NCBI GenBank assembly: GCA_019637445.1
Contig: JAHBVS010000002.1
Coordinates: forward strand, 310,001 to 374,000
Source of the DNA: Gemmatimonadaceae bacterium
GTDB lineage: Bacteria; Gemmatimonadota; Gemmatimonadetes; Gemmatimonadales; Gemmatimonadaceae
Length of the DNA stretch: 64,000 nt
Direction of reading: 5' to 3'
This document shows positions 11,813-60,824 of this stretch, one piece after another. Within the stretch, counting starts at the first letter, position 1. Every line of letters starts with the position of its first letter. Position numbers and translations under genes: made by a program. The notes beneath the pieces are model-generated. The model had not been told where the DNA came from and did no database searches. It was given only the letters and a program-made list of their open reading frames with translations.

Positions 11813-11830
11813 GCTACAACTGAAGTCGTA

Positions 11831-11889
11831 AGTTGTGAGTCATGAGTCGTGAGGAACGACTCACAACTCACGACTCATGACTCACCACT
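11831..11889. repeat. heptad-repeat hairpin, copy 1 of the ACTYAYN family
   Basis: Between the ArsR-methyltransferase gene and ahcY. The left arm is a run of 7-nt units of form NRTRAGT (CGTAAGT, TGTGAGT, CATGAGT, CGTGAGG); the right arm carries the complementary units ACTCACA, ACTCACG, ACTCATG, ACTCACC. A 19-bp perfect pairing joins 11835-11853 to 11867-11885, offset by one unit, leaving a 13-nt loop. There is no T-run. A related AACTGAAGT motif lies just left and CCCGCATCC just right (about 11913), both shared with the copies near 57.5 and 60.7 kb. Confidence 0.85.
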
Positions 11890-11929: not shown

Positions 11930-13447
11930 ATGACCGCCATCGCTCCCAACGCCCACGCCTTCGACGCCGCCAAGTCCGCCGGCCGCGAGCCGTTCAAGGT
12001 CGCCGACATCTCCCTCGCCCCCTGGGGCCGCCAGGAGATCCGTCTCGCCGAGTATGAGATGCCGGGCCTGATGGCCCTGCGCGCCGAGTACAAGGGCAAG
12101 AAGCCGCTCGCCGGTGCCCGCATCATGGGCTCGCTGCACATGACCATCCAGACGGCCGTGCTGATCGAGACCCTGACCGAACTCGGCGCCGACGTGCGCT
12201 GGGTGAGCTGCAACATCTTCTCGACGCAGGACCACGCTGCCGCCGCCGTGGTGGTCGGCAAGGATGGGTCGGTCGAGCAGCCGCGCGGTACGCCGGTGTT
12301 CGCCTGGAAGGGCGAGACGCTCGAGGAGTACTGGTGGTGCACGGACCAGGCACTGCTGTGGCCGGACGGCCAGGGCCCGAACCTCATCCTCGATGACGGT
12401 GGCGACGCCACGCTGCTCATCCACAAGGGCACCGAGTACGAAGCCGCGGGCAAGATCCCGGCCTTCGACGCGGCCAACGAGCCCGAGGAGTGGGGCGTGA
12501 TCCTCGACCTCCTGCGCAAGACGCACAAGGAGGACCCGAAGCGCTGGACCAACGTCGGCAAGGCGATCAAGGGCGTCTCGGAGGAGACGACGACCGGCGT
12601 GCACCGCCTCTATGAGATGATGCAGGCGGGCACGCTGCTGTTCCCGGCCATCAACGTGAACGACTCGGTCACCAAGTCGAAGTTCGACAATCTCTACGGC
12701 TGCCGGCACTCGCTGACCGACGGCATCCTCCGCGCCTCGGACGTGATGCTCGCCGGCAAGGTCGCCGTCGTGCTCGGCTACGGCGACGTGGGCAAGGGCT
12801 CGGCGCAGGCCTTCAAGGGCCAGGGCGCGCGCGTCGTGATCGTCGAGATCGACCCCATCTGCGCGCTGCAGGCGGCGATGGAAGGCTACCAGGTCGCCAC
12901 GCTCGATGACGTGGTGAGCACCGCCGACATCTTCATCACTGCCACGGGCAACGCGGACATCATCACCGCGGCGCACATGGCGAAGATGAAGGACAAGGCC
13001 ATCGTCGGGAACATCGGCCACTTCGACAACGAGATCGACATGGCCGGTCTCAAGAAGATGGCGGGCGTCAAGCGCAACAACATCAAGCCGCAGTTCGACG
13101 AGTGGATCTTCCCGGACGGCCACTCGGTGCTGATCCTGGCCGAAGGCCGCCTGCTCAACCTCGGCTGCGCCACGGGCCACCCGTCGTTCGTGATGAGCTG
13201 CTCGTTCACCAACCAGGTGGTGGCGCAGGTCGACCTGCACCTCGCCGCGCAGGGCAAGGAGACGGTGTCGGGCACCAAGTACGACGCCAAGAAGGTCTAC
13301 GTGCTGCCCAAGAAGCTCGACGAGAAGGTGGCGCGCCTGCACCTCGACAAGCTGGGTGTGAAGCTGACGAAGCTCACGGAGAAGCAGGCGGCGTACATCG
13401 GCGTGCCGGTGGATGGGCCGTATAAGTCGGACCACTACCGGTACTAG
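11930..13447 (+). CDS. ahcY: adenosylhomocysteinase (S-adenosyl-L-homocysteine hydrolase)
   Basis: A 505-residue NAD-dependent enzyme that splits S-adenosylhomocysteine into homocysteine and adenosine, relieving product inhibition of methyltransferases. Signatures include [14 protein letters not shown], the substrate-binding DDGGD segment, [21 protein letters not shown], the NAD loop [22 protein letters not shown], and C-terminal KSDHYRY that closes the partner active site. It has the long insert typical of bacterial enzymes. It starts at ATG 11930, about 45 nt after the heptad hairpin. The preceding ArsR-methyltransferase is probably its regulator. A compound hairpin follows the stop. Confidence 0.97.
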
Positions 13448-13555
13448 GACGAAGGTTGTAGGACGAAGGACGGAAGTGAACGGCGGCGCGAGTCCAAGGA
13501 TTCGCGCCGCCGTTTGCCGTTTGCTTCCGTCCTTCGTCCTCCGCCCTCCGTCCTC
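13448..13555. repeat. compound hairpin of 7-nt units between convergent ahcY and propeller gene (probable two-way terminator)
   Basis: Outer stem of 17 perfect base pairs (13460-13476 with 13524-13540), built from 7-nt units: AGGACGA/AGGACGG on the left, and TTCGTCC, TCCGCCC, TCCGTCC on the right. Inside lies a second, GC-rich perfect 11-bp stem (13481-13491 with 13502-13512). It fills the whole gap between the ahcY stop and the stop of the convergent minus-strand gene, so it can fold on either transcript. It shares architecture, not sequence, with the ACTYAYN copies. Confidence 0.8.
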
Positions 13556-14806
13556 CTACTTGAGCACGTCCACCCCTCCCGCCTGCTGCCCGACCTCGAC
13601 CGTCGCGACCACCCGCAGCGCGCGCAGATCAATCACGTCCACCGTCGCCTTCTCCGAACCGACGCCTTCGTTGGTGATGAAGGCGTAGCGGTCGTCGCTG
13701 GTCACGGCGGCACCGTGGGTGACGCGCTTCGATGTCGGGATGCGGGCCAGCTCGCGGCCGCTCTGCGTGTCGAAGACGGAGATGGACTGGCCGCGCTTGT
13801 TGGTGCCGATGAGCAGGCGGCCGTCGTGCGTCACGGCGAGGTTGTAGACGCCGGGGCCGGCCGGAATGCGCCGCAGCAACGACCACGAGGCCACGTCCAC
13901 CTCGACGATCTCGCTGGACTTGTTGCAGGCCACCCAGATGCGTGTGCCGTCGGCCGAGGGCTGCGCCCAGGTCGGCGAGCAACTCACATCGCCGGGCTTT
14001 GGGGGCTCGAGGCCGTGCCCGCCCATATCGTGGCCGGCGTGCGCGGCATCGGCGAGCCTGCGCTTGGGCGGTGCACCATCGCGCCCCTGCTCCTTGCCGC
14101 CGGTGAGCAGAAAATGGCGTGTGACGCCGAAGCGCTCGGCGTCAATCTCCACCATCGCATCGTCCATCATGCAGGCGGAGTAGTGCCGCGTGCCCGCAGG
14201 ATTCAGGCGCGAGCCGTGCGGCATCGTGCAGGTCTCGACGCGCGCGATTTCGATCATCGCGCCGGTCTCCACCACCGACACCGACGAGGTGACCATCTCG
14301 CCGTGCAGGTTGAAATTCACCGCCCACACATACCAGCCGTTGGGACTGACCTGCGCCGTAGCGGGGAATGGCCCCAGCGTGATGCGGCCCAGCGGCGTGT
14401 CGTCGGCCCGGCGGAACTTCCAGAGATCGCCGCCCGGGATGCCGTGCGCGGTGGTGACGTAGTAGAACTCGCCGTCGGGGCTCAACGCGACGCCGTGCGG
14501 GCCGTCGGGGTCGGTCATCGAGATGCCGACCGGCACGACCTTGTCGAGCCGCGCACCCTGCGGCCCGAAGACAATGCGCGAGACTTCGTCCACGGACTCG
14601 GAGACGACGTAGGCCACATACTCGCGCTCGACGGGAGAAGGCTCAGGAAGCATCCGAGGCGAGAGACGCGCCGTGTCCGGCGCGCCCTCGGTGAGGATGC
14701 GTGGCTCCAGCCGTGCCTGATCGGCGGGGCGCGGCGCACAGGCCATCGCCCCGAGCAGCAACCCCATCGCAGCGATTGCGCCGCCACCGAAACGCACAGG
14801 CGTCAC
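13556..14806 (-). CDS. YVTN beta-propeller lipoprotein
   Basis: A 416-residue protein. The start is placed at the GTG whose TGA overlap (GTGA) couples it to the upstream gene; it then begins with a hydrophobic stretch ending in lipobox LGAMAC. Repeated propeller blades are visible: DGPHGVALSPDGEFYYVTT, NLAVTHDGRLLIGTN, HGAAVTSDDRYAFITN. A His-rich loop AHAGHDMGGHG and conserved Cys/Met/His could bind metal. Proteins of this type are surface or periplasmic; some resemble nitrite-reductase d1 propellers, but heme ligands are not evident. It is the second gene of a pair with the LVIVD protein. Function unknown. Confidence 0.75.
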   Translation of the reverse strand: MTPVRFGGGAIAAMGLLLGAMACAPRPADQARLEPRILTEGAPDTARLSPRMLPEPSPVEREYVAYVVSESVDEVSRIVFGPQGARLDKVVPVGISMTDPDGPHGVALSPDGEFYYVTTAHGIPGGDLWKFRRADDTPLGRITLGPFPATAQVSPNGWYVWAVNFNLHGEMVTSSVSVVETGAMIEIARVETCTMPHGSRLNPAGTRHYSACMMDDAMVEIDAERFGVTRHFLLTGGKEQGRDGAPPKRRLADAAHAGHDMGGHGLEPPKPGDVSCSPTWAQPSADGTRIWVACNKSSEIVEVDVASWSLLRRIPAGPGVYNLAVTHDGRLLIGTNKRGQSISVFDTQSGRELARIPTSKRVTHGAAVTSDDRYAFITNEGVGSEKATVDVIDLRALRVVATVEVGQQAGGVDVLK

Positions 14807-41505: not shown

Positions 41506-41602
41506 GTTCCAGGTCCCGGGGGGCTTCGGCCCGCCAACCCCGCCAGGGCCGAAAGGCAGCAACGGTACGTGGAGTCCATCGCCGCTCCGTCAGGCCTGGA
41601 AC
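41506..41602 (+). ncRNA. ffs: signal recognition particle RNA, small bacterial (4.5S) type
   Basis: About 97 nt. The ends GTTCCAGG (41506-41513) and CCTGGAAC (41595-41602) pair perfectly. The apical domain contains GCCAGGGCCGAAAGGCAGCA around 41541-41560, matching the conserved Ffh-binding hairpin with a GNRA-like tetraloop and the A-rich asymmetric loop. The gene lies just upstream of dnaX, as in many bacteria. Promoter and T-run terminator flank it, so it is an autonomous unit. The RNA works with Ffh and FtsY in cotranslational membrane targeting. Confidence 0.9.
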
Positions 41603-41605
41603 ACT

Positions 41606-41655
41606 CTCGCGCGCTTGATTCGTCTCGCAAGGACGGATCGGCGCGCGAGTTTTTT
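41606..41655 (+). terminator. rho-independent terminator of the SRP RNA gene
   Basis: CTCGCGCGC (41606-41614) pairs perfectly with GCGCGCGAG (41641-41649), followed directly by TTTTTT (41650-41655). The loop is long (26 nt). It lies 4 nt beyond the RNA 3' stem. The T-run merges into the left arm of the large inverted repeat. Confidence 0.8.
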
Positions 41656-41846
41656 GCCACAGAGGCACGGAGACACAGAGCGGCACGTGGGGCGAATCTG
41701 AACTCTGTGTCTTCTTTCAGTTGGCACTTTGGGGGGTGCGGCGGACAGATCTGTCCGCCGCACCCCCTTTGAAGTTGCCGTTGGCCTAGACACAGAGGGG
41801 TCGGAGTGCGGGGATGCCCTCTGCGTCTCTGTGCCTCTGTGGCAAA
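41653..41846. repeat. 194-bp nested inverted repeat with 8-nt units and a 36-bp perfect palindrome core
   Basis: Three nested stems. Outer: 41653-41680 with 41819-41846, 28 nt with one G-T and one mismatched pair; its arms are degenerate 8-nt units, CTCTGYGN on the right and the complement on the left. Middle: CTCTGTGTC (41703-41711) with GACACAGAG (41789-41797), again the same unit. Core: a perfect 36-bp palindrome, 41732-41767, centred on the AGATCT at 41747-41752. No coding potential. It fills most of the ffs-dnaX gap and could form a long cruciform or RNA hairpin. Confidence 0.88.
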
Positions 41847-41850
41847 GCAG

Positions 41851-41880
41851 TTCGCCGTTCCCGCATCCAACGGCTAAATT
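41851..41880 (+). promoter_or_regulatory. putative dnaX promoter
   Basis: TTCGCC (41851-41856), 18-bp spacer, TAAATT (41875-41880), in the context CGGCTAAATTC that also surrounds the ffs -10 box. The start would be near 41887, only about 5 nt before the dnaX ATG, so no room for a ribosome site. Confidence 0.5.
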
Positions 41881-41891
41881 CACGGCTGATA

Positions 41892-43682
41892 ATGAGCCTA
41901 GCCCTCGCCCGCAAATACCGCCCGCGCCGGTTCGCCGAGGTCGCCGTGCAATCGCACGTGGCCAACACGCTGCGGAACGCCATCCTCACGGACCGCGTGG
42001 CGCACGCGTACCTGTTCTGCGGGCCGCGCGGCACCGGCAAGACCACGCTGGCGCGCGTGCTGGCGATGGCGCTCAACTGCGAGAACCGTCGCGAGGACCG
42101 CGAGCCCTGTGGCGAGTGCCCCTCCTGCGACCGTGTGTGGAAGGGCGGGGCCTCGCTGGACGTGGTGGAGATCGACGCGGCCTCAAATCGTGGCGTGGAC
42201 GATGCCCGCGAGCTGCGCGAGCGCGCGATGTACGCGCCCTCCGGTGACGACCGCTACAAGGTCTATATCATCGACGAGGCGCACATGCTCACGCGCGAAG
42301 CGTGGAATGCGCTGCTCAAGATCCTCGAGGAGCCGCCGCCGCGCGTCGTGTTCGTGTTCGCCACCACCGAGCCGCAGAAGATCCAGCAGTCGGCGGCGCC
42401 CGTGCTTTCGCGCGTGCAGCGCTTTGACTTGAAGCGTATCGGGCCCGCCGACGTGCGCGAGCGACTGAGTGCCGTGCTCAGCACTGAGAAGATCGACGCC
42501 GACGCCGATGCCCTGATGATGCTCGCCCGCGCTGCCGACGGCTCCATGCGCGACGCGCTCTCGCTCACGGACCAGGTGCTCTCGCTGGGCGAGGGGGCGA
42601 TCAGCGCGCAGCGTGTGCGTGACGCCTTGGGCCTCGTGCCCGAGGACGAGCATCTCGCGCTGCTGGACTTGATCATCGAGCGCCGTGCCGCCGACGTGTT
42701 CGGATCCGTGGCGCGGCTGGCCGACCACGGCGTGGACTTCACCGTGCTGTTGAGTGAGTTCGCCGAACTGCTGCGCGCACAGCTGGCCGTGGTGCTTGGG
42801 GGCTCGCTGCCCGATGTCTCGGAGCGACTGCGCGAGGAGCTACCCAAGCGCGCGGACAAGCTCTCGTCGGGCGACCTCCTGCGGATGCTCACGTTGATCG
42901 TGGAGATCGAGCCGCATCTCAAGCGCAGCGGGCAGCAGCAGCTGTTGTTCGAGACGCTGTTGGTGCGTTGCGCGTTGTTGGATCGCACCGTGGCGCTGGA
43001 GGAAGTGCTGCGGGGGATGGGCGCCGGGTCCGGGTCGGCAGGGGACGCTGGCAGCACGGCGCGCAGTGGCAGCTGGGCCTCCGGCGGATTCGCCGGAGGC
43101 GGCGGCGAGCCCAGCCGCCGGATGGCTCCGCCGAGCGTCGCGCGCGACAGCGCGCCTCAGCGTGCGGCCCCTGCGCACGCGGTTGAGGCAGCGCCGGCAA
43201 GAGTCGCGGCCCCGCCGCCTGCCCCTCGCAGCGCCGCGCCCGCCCGCCCCGCCGCCCCCGCCCCCAGCATCGCCGACGCCGCCCCCGCCAAGGGCGGCCC
43301 TGTCGCCCTCGAGATCAACAAGCTCGTCGAGCACTGGGAAGGCATCGTCGACGCCATCGTCGCCGACGGCCGCGCGCTGCTCGGCGCCGCCCTCGGGCAC
43401 GCCACGCCCACGGCCGTCACCGCCAGCGGGACGGTGACGCTGACCGTCGACGCGTCCGCACAGGCCGAGTTGATCGGCGAGCAGGAGTCGGCCATCCTCG
43501 CCGCGCTGCGCAAGCGCTTTGCCAACGTGACCAAGCTCAAGGTGAAGGCCGCCGATGGCGATGCCGCACCGCGCCGGCTCAACGAGCACGCGGTGAAGGC
43601 CGACCGCATCGCGATGCTGCGCAAGCAGAGCAAGCTGCTCGATGCCGCCGTGGATGCACTGGACCTCGAGCTGATGGATTGA
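41892..43682 (+). CDS. dnaX: DNA polymerase III subunit gamma/tau
   Basis: A 596-residue clamp-loader subunit. Near the N-terminus: LARKYRPRRFAEV, Walker A GPRGTGKTTLAR, a zinc-binding set of cysteines (CENRREDREPCGECPSC), VEIDAASNRGVDD, Walker B IIDEAHML, and sensor 1 FATTEPQKI; the SRC motif reads LSRVQRF. Domain III follows to about residue 360. A Pro/Ala-rich linker (about 385-480) leads to a tau C-terminal domain. No slippery A-run was seen, so a frameshifted gamma form is not evident. The gene heads a dnaX-ebfC-recR cluster. Confidence 0.95.
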   Translation: MSLALARKYRPRRFAEVAVQSHVANTLRNAILTDRVAHAYLFCGPRGTGKTTLARVLAMALNCENRREDREPCGECPSCDRVWKGGASLDVVEIDAASNRGVDDARELRERAMYAPSGDDRYKVYIIDEAHMLTREAWNALLKILEEPPPRVVFVFATTEPQKIQQSAAPVLSRVQRFDLKRIGPADVRERLSAVLSTEKIDADADALMMLARAADGSMRDALSLTDQVLSLGEGAISAQRVRDALGLVPEDEHLALLDLIIERRAADVFGSVARLADHGVDFTVLLSEFAELLRAQLAVVLGGSLPDVSERLREELPKRADKLSSGDLLRMLTLIVEIEPHLKRSGQQQLLFETLLVRCALLDRTVALEEVLRGMGAGSGSAGDAGSTARSGSWASGGFAGGGGEPSRRMAPPSVARDSAPQRAAPAHAVEAAPARVAAPPPAPRSAAPARPAAPAPSIADAAPAKGGPVALEINKLVEHWEGIVDAIVADGRALLGAALGHATPTAVTASGTVTLTVDASAQAELIGEQESAILAALRKRFANVTKLKVKAADGDAAPRRLNEHAVKADRIAMLRKQSKLLDAAVDALDLELMD

Positions 43683-57481: not shown

Positions 57482-57526
57482 GGATGCGCAAGGGGGCTGA
57501 GGGATGCGGGGGAACGGCGGTCGTGA

Positions 57527-57617
57527 GTTGTGAGTCGTGAGTTGTGAGTAAAAGGCGGATGCGGGTCACTGCGCAGCCCGCATCCTCACTCACTACTCAC
57601 AACTCATAACTCACAAC
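57527..57617. repeat. heptad-repeat hairpin, copy 2 of the ACTYAYN family
   Basis: Between the ADOP permease gene and the ArsR gene. The outer stem pairs 57527-57550 with 57594-57617 (24 nt, two mismatches), each arm holding three to four 7-nt units (TGTGAGT and CGTGAGT on the left; ACTCACA and ACTCATA on the right). An inner perfect 9-bp stem, GGATGCGGG (57557-57565) with CCCGCATCC (57577-57585), closes an 11-nt loop. CTGCAGTTG follows the right arm. Three flanking GGGATGCG words lie at 57481-57510. Confidence 0.88.
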
Positions 57618-57650
57618 TGCAGTTGTCAGGCTAGATCCAGCGGCGTCCGC

Positions 57651-60614: not shown

Positions 60615-60719
60615 CGGGTCCCCTGAGTGGCTTTCCCTGAGTTAGTGAGGGGAAGGATGCGGGATGCGGAAGGACTTGTCAAATGCTCGGGATTGCTTGC
60701 GCAGATGGGGCTGAGCGGG

Positions 60720-60815
60720 GGATGCGGGTTGAACTGCAGTTGTAAGTCGTGAGTCGTGAGGAGGAGTGCTCCTCCCTCACCACTTACCACTCATGACTCA
60801 CAACTTCCCGTATCC
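60720..60815. repeat. heptad-repeat hairpin, copy 3 of the ACTYAYN family
   Basis: Between PadR and mnmA. Outermost GGATGCGGG (60720-60728) pairs with CCCGTATCC (60807-60815), eight of nine with a G-T. Inside, the left arm has three NRTRAGT units (TGTAAGT, CGTGAGT, CGTGAGG) and the right arm four complementary units (ACTTACC, ACTCATG, ACTCACA preceded by CCTCACC), so one arm has an extra unit. A GAGGAG/CTCCTC stem caps it. AACTGCAGTT (60732-60741) is shared with copy 2. The remaining 60615-60719 has no gene. Confidence 0.88.
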
Positions 60816-60824
60816 GACTGACGC

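Follow-up and report, generated by a model that had tools for sequence, protein, structure and literature searches.

Homing elements of the I-Ssp6803I type use a PD-(D/E)XK enzyme. REPIN-RAYT systems combine REP doublets with a REP-associated tyrosine transposase (PMC3116915, PMC3733652). In this study, we analysed a palindrome in a 64,000-nucleotide stretch of DNA (the window) from a Gemmatimonadaceae genome (G000; 3.35 Mb, 7 contigs), together with its relatives in the same genome, in congeners and in other phyla. Our reading, to which we give a probability of about 0.7, sees the window palindrome as a non-autonomous copy, variable in its interior, of a nuclease-linked class of repeats with arms of tandem octads, which resembles REPIN-RAYT and involves an unrelated enzyme.

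The palindrome lies between an SRP RNA gene (41508-41603, plus strand; Rfam RF00169, 46.7 bits), a neighbour outside the element, and the 5' part of the neighbouring dnaX (DNA polymerase III gamma/tau; 41892-43100, plus strand; TIGR02397, E 2.9e-120), and these matches uphold the location given in the original prediction. The SRP RNA has an intrinsic terminator (41606-41655, plus strand), recognised from sequence and RNA fold, with the stem CTCGCGCGC/GCGCGCGAG and a T-tract at 41650-41655; congeners have a terminator-like hairpin at the same place. The palindrome starts in this T-tract and ends 45 bp 5' of the dnaX start codon. The left outer arm (41653-41680, plus strand) consists of three octads and reads (TTT)GCCACAGAGGCACGGAGACACAGAG, and the right outer arm (41819-41846, plus strand) reads CTCTGCGTCTCTGTGCCTCTGTGGC(AAA). 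The two form an inverted repeat of 28 nt each, 93% complementary and 138 nt apart. Their words are the tandem 8-nt units GCCACAGAG-GCACAGAG-ACACAGAG; the arms run 25 nt as octads and end in CTCTGTGGC. The last two octads of the right arm plus GGC match the pan-phylum arm described below. Further in, CTCTGTGTCT at 41703-41712 pairs with AGACACAGAG at 41788-41797 (both plus strand; sequence and folds) to form a middle stem of the same unit, and the core, found by inverted-repeat detection and related to cores in other copies, is a perfect 36-bp palindrome at 41732-41767 with the halves GGGGGTGCGGCGGACAGA and TCTGTCCGCCGCACCCCC. Immediately outside the right arm lies GCAGTT (41847-41852, plus strand), one side of a flanking module GAACTGCTTT...AAAGCAGTTC found after many copies. 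The fold of the palindrome as single-stranded DNA reached -70 kcal/mol. Dinucleotide shuffles gave -33.3 ± 3.1 kcal/mol (z = -11.9), and none of the 200 was as stable.

These results confirm the triple nested palindrome that had been proposed at this place, with its arms, middle stem and perfect core, and the octad arms bear out the period of 8. The interval 41653-41846 is correct as a structure, but its first TTT is the end of the SRP terminator T-tract. The outer stem is indeed built of octads, but the middle octad of the left arm, CTCCGTGN, departs from the proposed CTCTGYGN unit. We also considered the window palindrome as an intrinsic terminator and rejected this, as its stem is followed by AAAGCAG and the T-tract, which precedes the stem, belongs to the SRP terminator. 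Membership of a class of short-period hairpins in the window was borne out as well: heptad hairpins lie at 11.8, 13.4, 57.5 and 60.7 kb, are intergenic too, and none is at a divergent junction. The intergenic heptad-armed hairpins AGTTGTGAGTCGTGAGT...ACTCACAACTCA at 11824-11889, 57524-57618 and 60615-60824 appear to be a further family with this short-period design. The hairpin at 13441-13559, between convergent genes, has short-period GGACGAAGG-type arms of 44 nt that are 82% complementary.

We searched G000 by BLAST with a 221-bp region and by an arm-pattern search, and the loci were then fetched. The BLAST search, suggested in the original prediction, yielded 119 matching pieces at some 40 places, and the arm pattern added more places. 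The census gave 51 paired elements and 12 single arms; we state it as at least 50 paired elements. According to gene calls made in this analysis, the 51 paired elements occupy 30 convergent, 20 tandem and 0 divergent junctions and 1 undetermined junction, and none lies inside a gene. Among the intergenic bases of the 64-kb window, 16% are divergent and 6% convergent (window gene calls). Two main size classes emerged: elements of about 185-195 bp, which contain the core palindrome, and elements of 70-71 bp. If the long form lost the sequence between its inner and outer CTCTGTGTCT words, the 71-bp form would result. Across 14 distinct cores, 14 cells were changed on both sides of a pair, compared with 5.1 ± 1.8 in shuffles, and the covariation score was 0.184, compared with at most 0.067 when the pairing was slid; the cores thus vary yet stay palindromic. 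Counting G-T against A-C mismatches in the cores as an RNA-versus-DNA test gave 16 vs 17, which is uninformative because most sites are convergent. The flanks of the own-genome copies contain recurrent outer modules, GAACTGCTTT (AACTG within 14 nt in 49 of 102 flanks) and GATCTGTGCGCTGAGTTTT (about 25 of 102), which suggests further layers of palindromic repeats. The palindrome had originally been regarded as a rare, cruciform-prone curiosity. This view is not supported, as the palindrome belongs to a dispersed repeat of which the genome contains at least 50 pairs, which has relatives in many phyla and which is partnered by a protein-coding gene.

Matches to the window element were found in 5 of 17 congeners (G000, G002, G008, G012 and G016). 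The orthologous SRP RNA-dnaX sites of congeners carried arms of other 8-nt words (CTTCGTGN, CTCGGTGN) or lacked arms: the palindrome there has CTTCGTGN arms in G012 and CTCGGTGC arms in G015, and no palindrome was present at this site in G003, G004, G006, G007, G010 or G013. Different words at orthologous sites therefore indicate that differently worded elements settled at the same place. Nesting was seen at one locus of G002 (L074), where a CACGAAG-armed pair surrounds a CACGGAG/CACAGAG-armed palindrome with an inner GC-rich core like that of the window copy.

The exact 25-nt arm CTCTGTGTCTCTGTGCCTCTGTGGC occurred in at least 117 stretches, usually as inverted pairs about 60-300 bp apart with unrelated interiors. 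These came from Pseudomonadota, Acidobacteriota, Desulfobacterota (Geobacter), Spirochaetota, Verrucomicrobiota, Chloroflexota, Gemmatimonadota, planctomycetes, Cloacimonadota and others; the genomes compared are often draft MAGs. One locus of Gemmatimonas sp. PR.013 (L276, G069) equals a locus of the congener G002 (L260) base for base, by which the genus of the window falls in Gemmatimonadaceae. Orthologous loci of Roseateles included one likely empty site (L101 vs L192), in a spacer too diverged for the junction to be read. At some ORF ends (L117, L122, L171), the repeat is translated into the spurious peptides SLCLCASV and TQRHRDTE, which may mislead annotation.

Most arm pairs have no coding interior. 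Among the at least 117 stretches, five longer pairs hold one small gene each, and four of these five genes belong to the GxxExxY family (TIGR04256/PF13366), small genes for a protein of about 125 aa. They come from Roseateles (L117, L160), Chloroflexi (L165) and Geobacteraceae (L097), with E about 1e-43 to 1e-45. Among the matches listed, all four GxxExxY genes in the 8-kb arm-bearing stretches stand between two arms. The fifth gene, in Verrucomicrobia (L164:4589-5449), encodes an HNH protein between octad arms, from which the type of enclosed nuclease may be exchangeable. Other long spans from left to right arm turned out to be host genes between separate elements; among the matches listed, the GxxExxY genes and the one HNH gene were those that fitted as arm-bounded segments.

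Within the genus, PF13366 was detected as a single copy in 7 of 17 congeners, among them all five that carry the CTCTGTG repeat. In six of the seven cases, inverted octad or nonad arms closely bracket the gene, with the words ACCACGGAG... in the own genome, CACGAAG in G012, CACGGAG in G002, CACAGAG in G008, and nonads in G005 and G016. In other species, arm words of 9-10 nt also occur. The one intact gene copy of G000 lies in an element with CACGGAG-type arms (L264). This counts against our reading, in that the nuclease element of G000 is of the minority CACGGAG type and the window copy of the majority CACAGAG type. The CACAGAG type, as in the window, brackets GxxExxY in G008 (L263), Roseateles, Geobacteraceae and Chloroflexi.

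We then applied one fixed rule around GxxExxY genes, namely an ungapped inverted repeat within 120 bp with a score of at least 15. The results showed inverted arms at 32 of 61 GxxExxY genes, compared with 0 of 39 RAYT or SRP control loci and 0 of 118 shifted blocks from the same loci. By set, the arms were found at 6/7 genes of the genus, 19/27 of the foreign set and 7/27 of the family sample. Because presence of the arm was the criterion for the foreign set, the fairer comparison comes from the genus, family and plasmid sets. Plasmid GxxExxY genes picked by protein similarity alone had arms in three of six cases (Bernardetia, Bacteroides finegoldii and Sphingomonas). A flank periodicity score was supportive, though weaker than the inverted-arm test. 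By the strict test, 29 of the 61 genes were without ungapped arms, and some of these have one-sided or differently worded periodic flanks. At L298, L309, L318, L321 and L322, the GxxExxY flanks are periodic with other words (CACGGATN, ATCTGTGCTC, ACAGGATGA, GACAGGATT), hinting that several more common bacterial repeats fall in the same class.

PF13366 was present in 19 of 20 foreign arm-bearing genomes and in 3 of 14 well-known control genomes. No PF13366 match was found in the octad-rich genomes G128 and G144, the arm-bearing foreign genome G062 or the octad-element genome G015, where some assemblies are incomplete. At the level of the family, gene and repeat co-occur only weakly, since the gene is present in 82 of 118 genomes. 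In G144, a family member, octad palindromes are arrayed in tandem, one about every 160 bp (C43:55474-55933 and C81). A homologue of the GxxExxY query was found in 8 of 72,556 plasmids and in none of 50,697 phage records. Taken together, the arms are associated with the GxxExxY gene.

The short and gene-bearing forms also share their ends. A 71-bp palindrome of G000 (L046:2603-2673) and the GxxExxY element of the same genome (L264) are identical at 32 of 32 bases of the left end and 30 of 30 of the right end, including the one CTCTGTG octad by which the right arm differs from the left. In an Acetobacteraceae genome, the ends of the short element L129 match those of the GxxExxY element L273 at 47/50 and 56/59 bases, well past the octads. 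Short and GxxExxY elements of Roseateles caseinilyticus also have the genus-specific outer extension, GAACACA, in common. The simplest reading of these sequences is that the short palindromes may derive from the nuclease element by deletion or may depend on it.

The GxxExxY gene occupies one orthologous site in G000, G002, G008 and G012, where it lies on the 3' side of one gene and has a DinB-like gene opposite it. In the gene tree, the four proteins group in a single clade (support 91/53); they are 52-59% identical, compared with 78-79% for the neighbour. The site is empty in G003, G005, G006, G010 and G011, and G016 has a lone arm there. The arm words at this site differ among the four species, and the G012 word is that of the G012 SRP-dnaX palindrome. 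With one site, one clade and differing words, the gene is therefore vertically inherited while the arm word turns over in concert.

The predicted product is a PD-(D/E)XK nuclease of the Cas4/lambda-exonuclease type. In 59 aligned GxxExxY sequences, the G, G, E and Y of the motif, D67, E77-x-K79 (one D for E), Q91-xxx-Y95, N108, F109 and R120 are invariant or nearly so, and the own-genome copy is a single open frame that keeps all conserved residues. An AlphaFold2 model built from four sequences (pLDDT 91, pTM 0.84) has a PD-(D/E)XK fold. Its best structural match was Cas4 SSO0001 (Z 10.3, rmsd 3.8, 99 residues); the top Foldseek matches were the LHK and lambda exonucleases, at E 2e-3 to 1e-2, none strong by E-value. 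The Holliday-junction resolvase Hjc gave Z 7.5, within the range for common folds, and PADLOC returned weak Cas4 profile matches. A match to ribosomal L7 came from a sequence-only PDB search, was weak and was disregarded.

From this we infer that the GxxExxY nuclease mobilises the palindromes by a cut-and-repair route. The autonomous form would consist of one gene, for the GxxExxY protein of about 125 aa, between arms, and the short palindromes would be its deletion derivatives or dependants. The nuclease may recognise the arm words, or the hairpin or cruciform that they form, and cut there. After the cut, DNA break repair could copy the element or re-insert it at new sites. Copies would then build up downstream of genes and terminators, where insertion is presumably least harmful.

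The main rival is homing of GxxExxY into palindromes spread by other means. Here the octad palindromes would be 3'-end hairpins, maintained by the host or otherwise spread (mRNA protection, bidirectional termination), and GxxExxY a selfish nuclease that uses them as safe sites. We consider this unlikely, though several points favour it: all copies are 3' of genes, the GxxExxY element sits just past a terminator-like T-tract in G000 and G012, the gene is inherited vertically at one site, and the HNH nuclease between arms in L164 looks as if different nucleases use one site type. Against it, arm wording is species-specific, and the nuclease element and the short copies share this wording and even non-octad subterminal sequence. 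The arms are also identical in many phyla, which suggests that they spread and do not serve the host. Tandem genes flank nearly all copies in Roseateles-like genomes, and some of these copies are within an apparent operon for branched-chain amino-acid transport, and the outer flanks, with TTT before and AAA after, have the wrong order for a terminator.

An ordinary DDE insertion sequence could have left MITEs with the arms as terminal inverted repeats, and the short length, inverted ends, many copies and presence or absence between species would suit this. It is nevertheless improbable: no target-site duplication stands out across the 51 elements (best candidate 3/51), arms of tandem 8-nt words are unlike the usual terminal inverted repeat, and among the matches listed (at least 117 stretches) no transposase gene stands between arms, the enclosed genes being GxxExxY (4) and HNH (1). 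More improbable still is a repeat of the REP/BIME type that depends on a RAYT (Y1/HUH tyrosine transposase) for its mobility. Intergenic hairpins that are dispersed on the 3' side of genes and have a vertically inherited single-copy partner do resemble REPIN-RAYT (PMC3116915, PMC3733652), and PF01797 occurs in 17 of 20 foreign arm-bearing genomes. However, it occurs in 0 of 17 congeners, including the five with the repeat, and a single arm was nearby at only 1 of 30 Y1_Tnp loci in arm-bearing genomes; with no PF01797 in the genus and Y1_Tnp loci not flanked by the repeat, we rejected RAYT/REP identity. Finally, misassembly can make large perfect palindromes, and the original prediction had allowed for an artefact. 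This is very unlikely because the genome holds at least 50 paired, independent elements on the same plan; moreover, related cores differ by compensatory, non-identical changes and relatives occur in unrelated assemblies. An artefact is scarcely credible for the window copy and is already refuted for the class.

Beyond the window palindrome, the odds seem a little better than even that these elements form an undescribed, widespread class of mobile or propagating DNA, in which palindromes of tandem 8-10-nt words are spread and rewritten by a single-copy, vertically inherited Cas4-like nuclease (GxxExxY). This would be a second, independent solution of the REPIN-RAYT kind, with the arm word changing in concert. 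Our literature search covered open-access papers, so priority is not established. In these, the GxxExxY name appears in two unrelated papers, and we found nothing that ties GxxExxY/PF13366 to repeats or that describes a repeat with the arm words. GxxExxY (TIGR04256) is annotated in many bacterial genomes without a known role, and its link with the palindromes gives it a testable function. The link would explain a common, so far unexplained genomic repeat across phyla, implies a route by which a PD-(D/E)XK nuclease and not a transposase spreads palindromes, and makes it testable how palindromes persist and stay matched in genomes.

The predicted enzyme resembles Cas4, lambda exonuclease and RecB-type nucleases in its predicted fold, its E, D, ExK and QxxxY residues and its weak Cas4 profile matches. 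Unlike them, it is encoded by a stand-alone 125-aa gene between palindrome arms, outside CRISPR or phage recombination loci. The elements share with I-Ssp6803I-type homing elements a small PD-(D/E)XK nuclease gene as sole cargo and possibly copying by cut and repair, but they have no intron or intein, are bounded by dispersed inverted octad arms and have many gene-less derivatives in the same genome. Like bacterial MITEs (e.g. RUP) and ERIC-like imperfect palindromes, they are non-autonomous, 70-200 bp long, intergenic and present in many copies with inverted ends; unlike these, they show no target-site duplication and have period-8 arms, a nuclease gene rather than a DDE transposase as partner, and a range of many phyla. 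REPIN-RAYT is similar in having short dispersed hairpins that are built of inverted words and lie outside genes, for the most part at 3' ends, and a single-copy, vertically inherited partner enzyme gene flanked by the same words, and in being rare on plasmids and not found on phages (one search each with the GxxExxY query). The differences are that REP carries a GTAG/CGTC tag at the foot of a short stem (PMC3733652) in place of tandem 8-10-nt words, that RAYT is absent in the genus, and that the partner here is a predicted PD-(D/E)XK nuclease (GxxExxY) whereas that of REPIN-RAYT is an HUH Y1 transposase.
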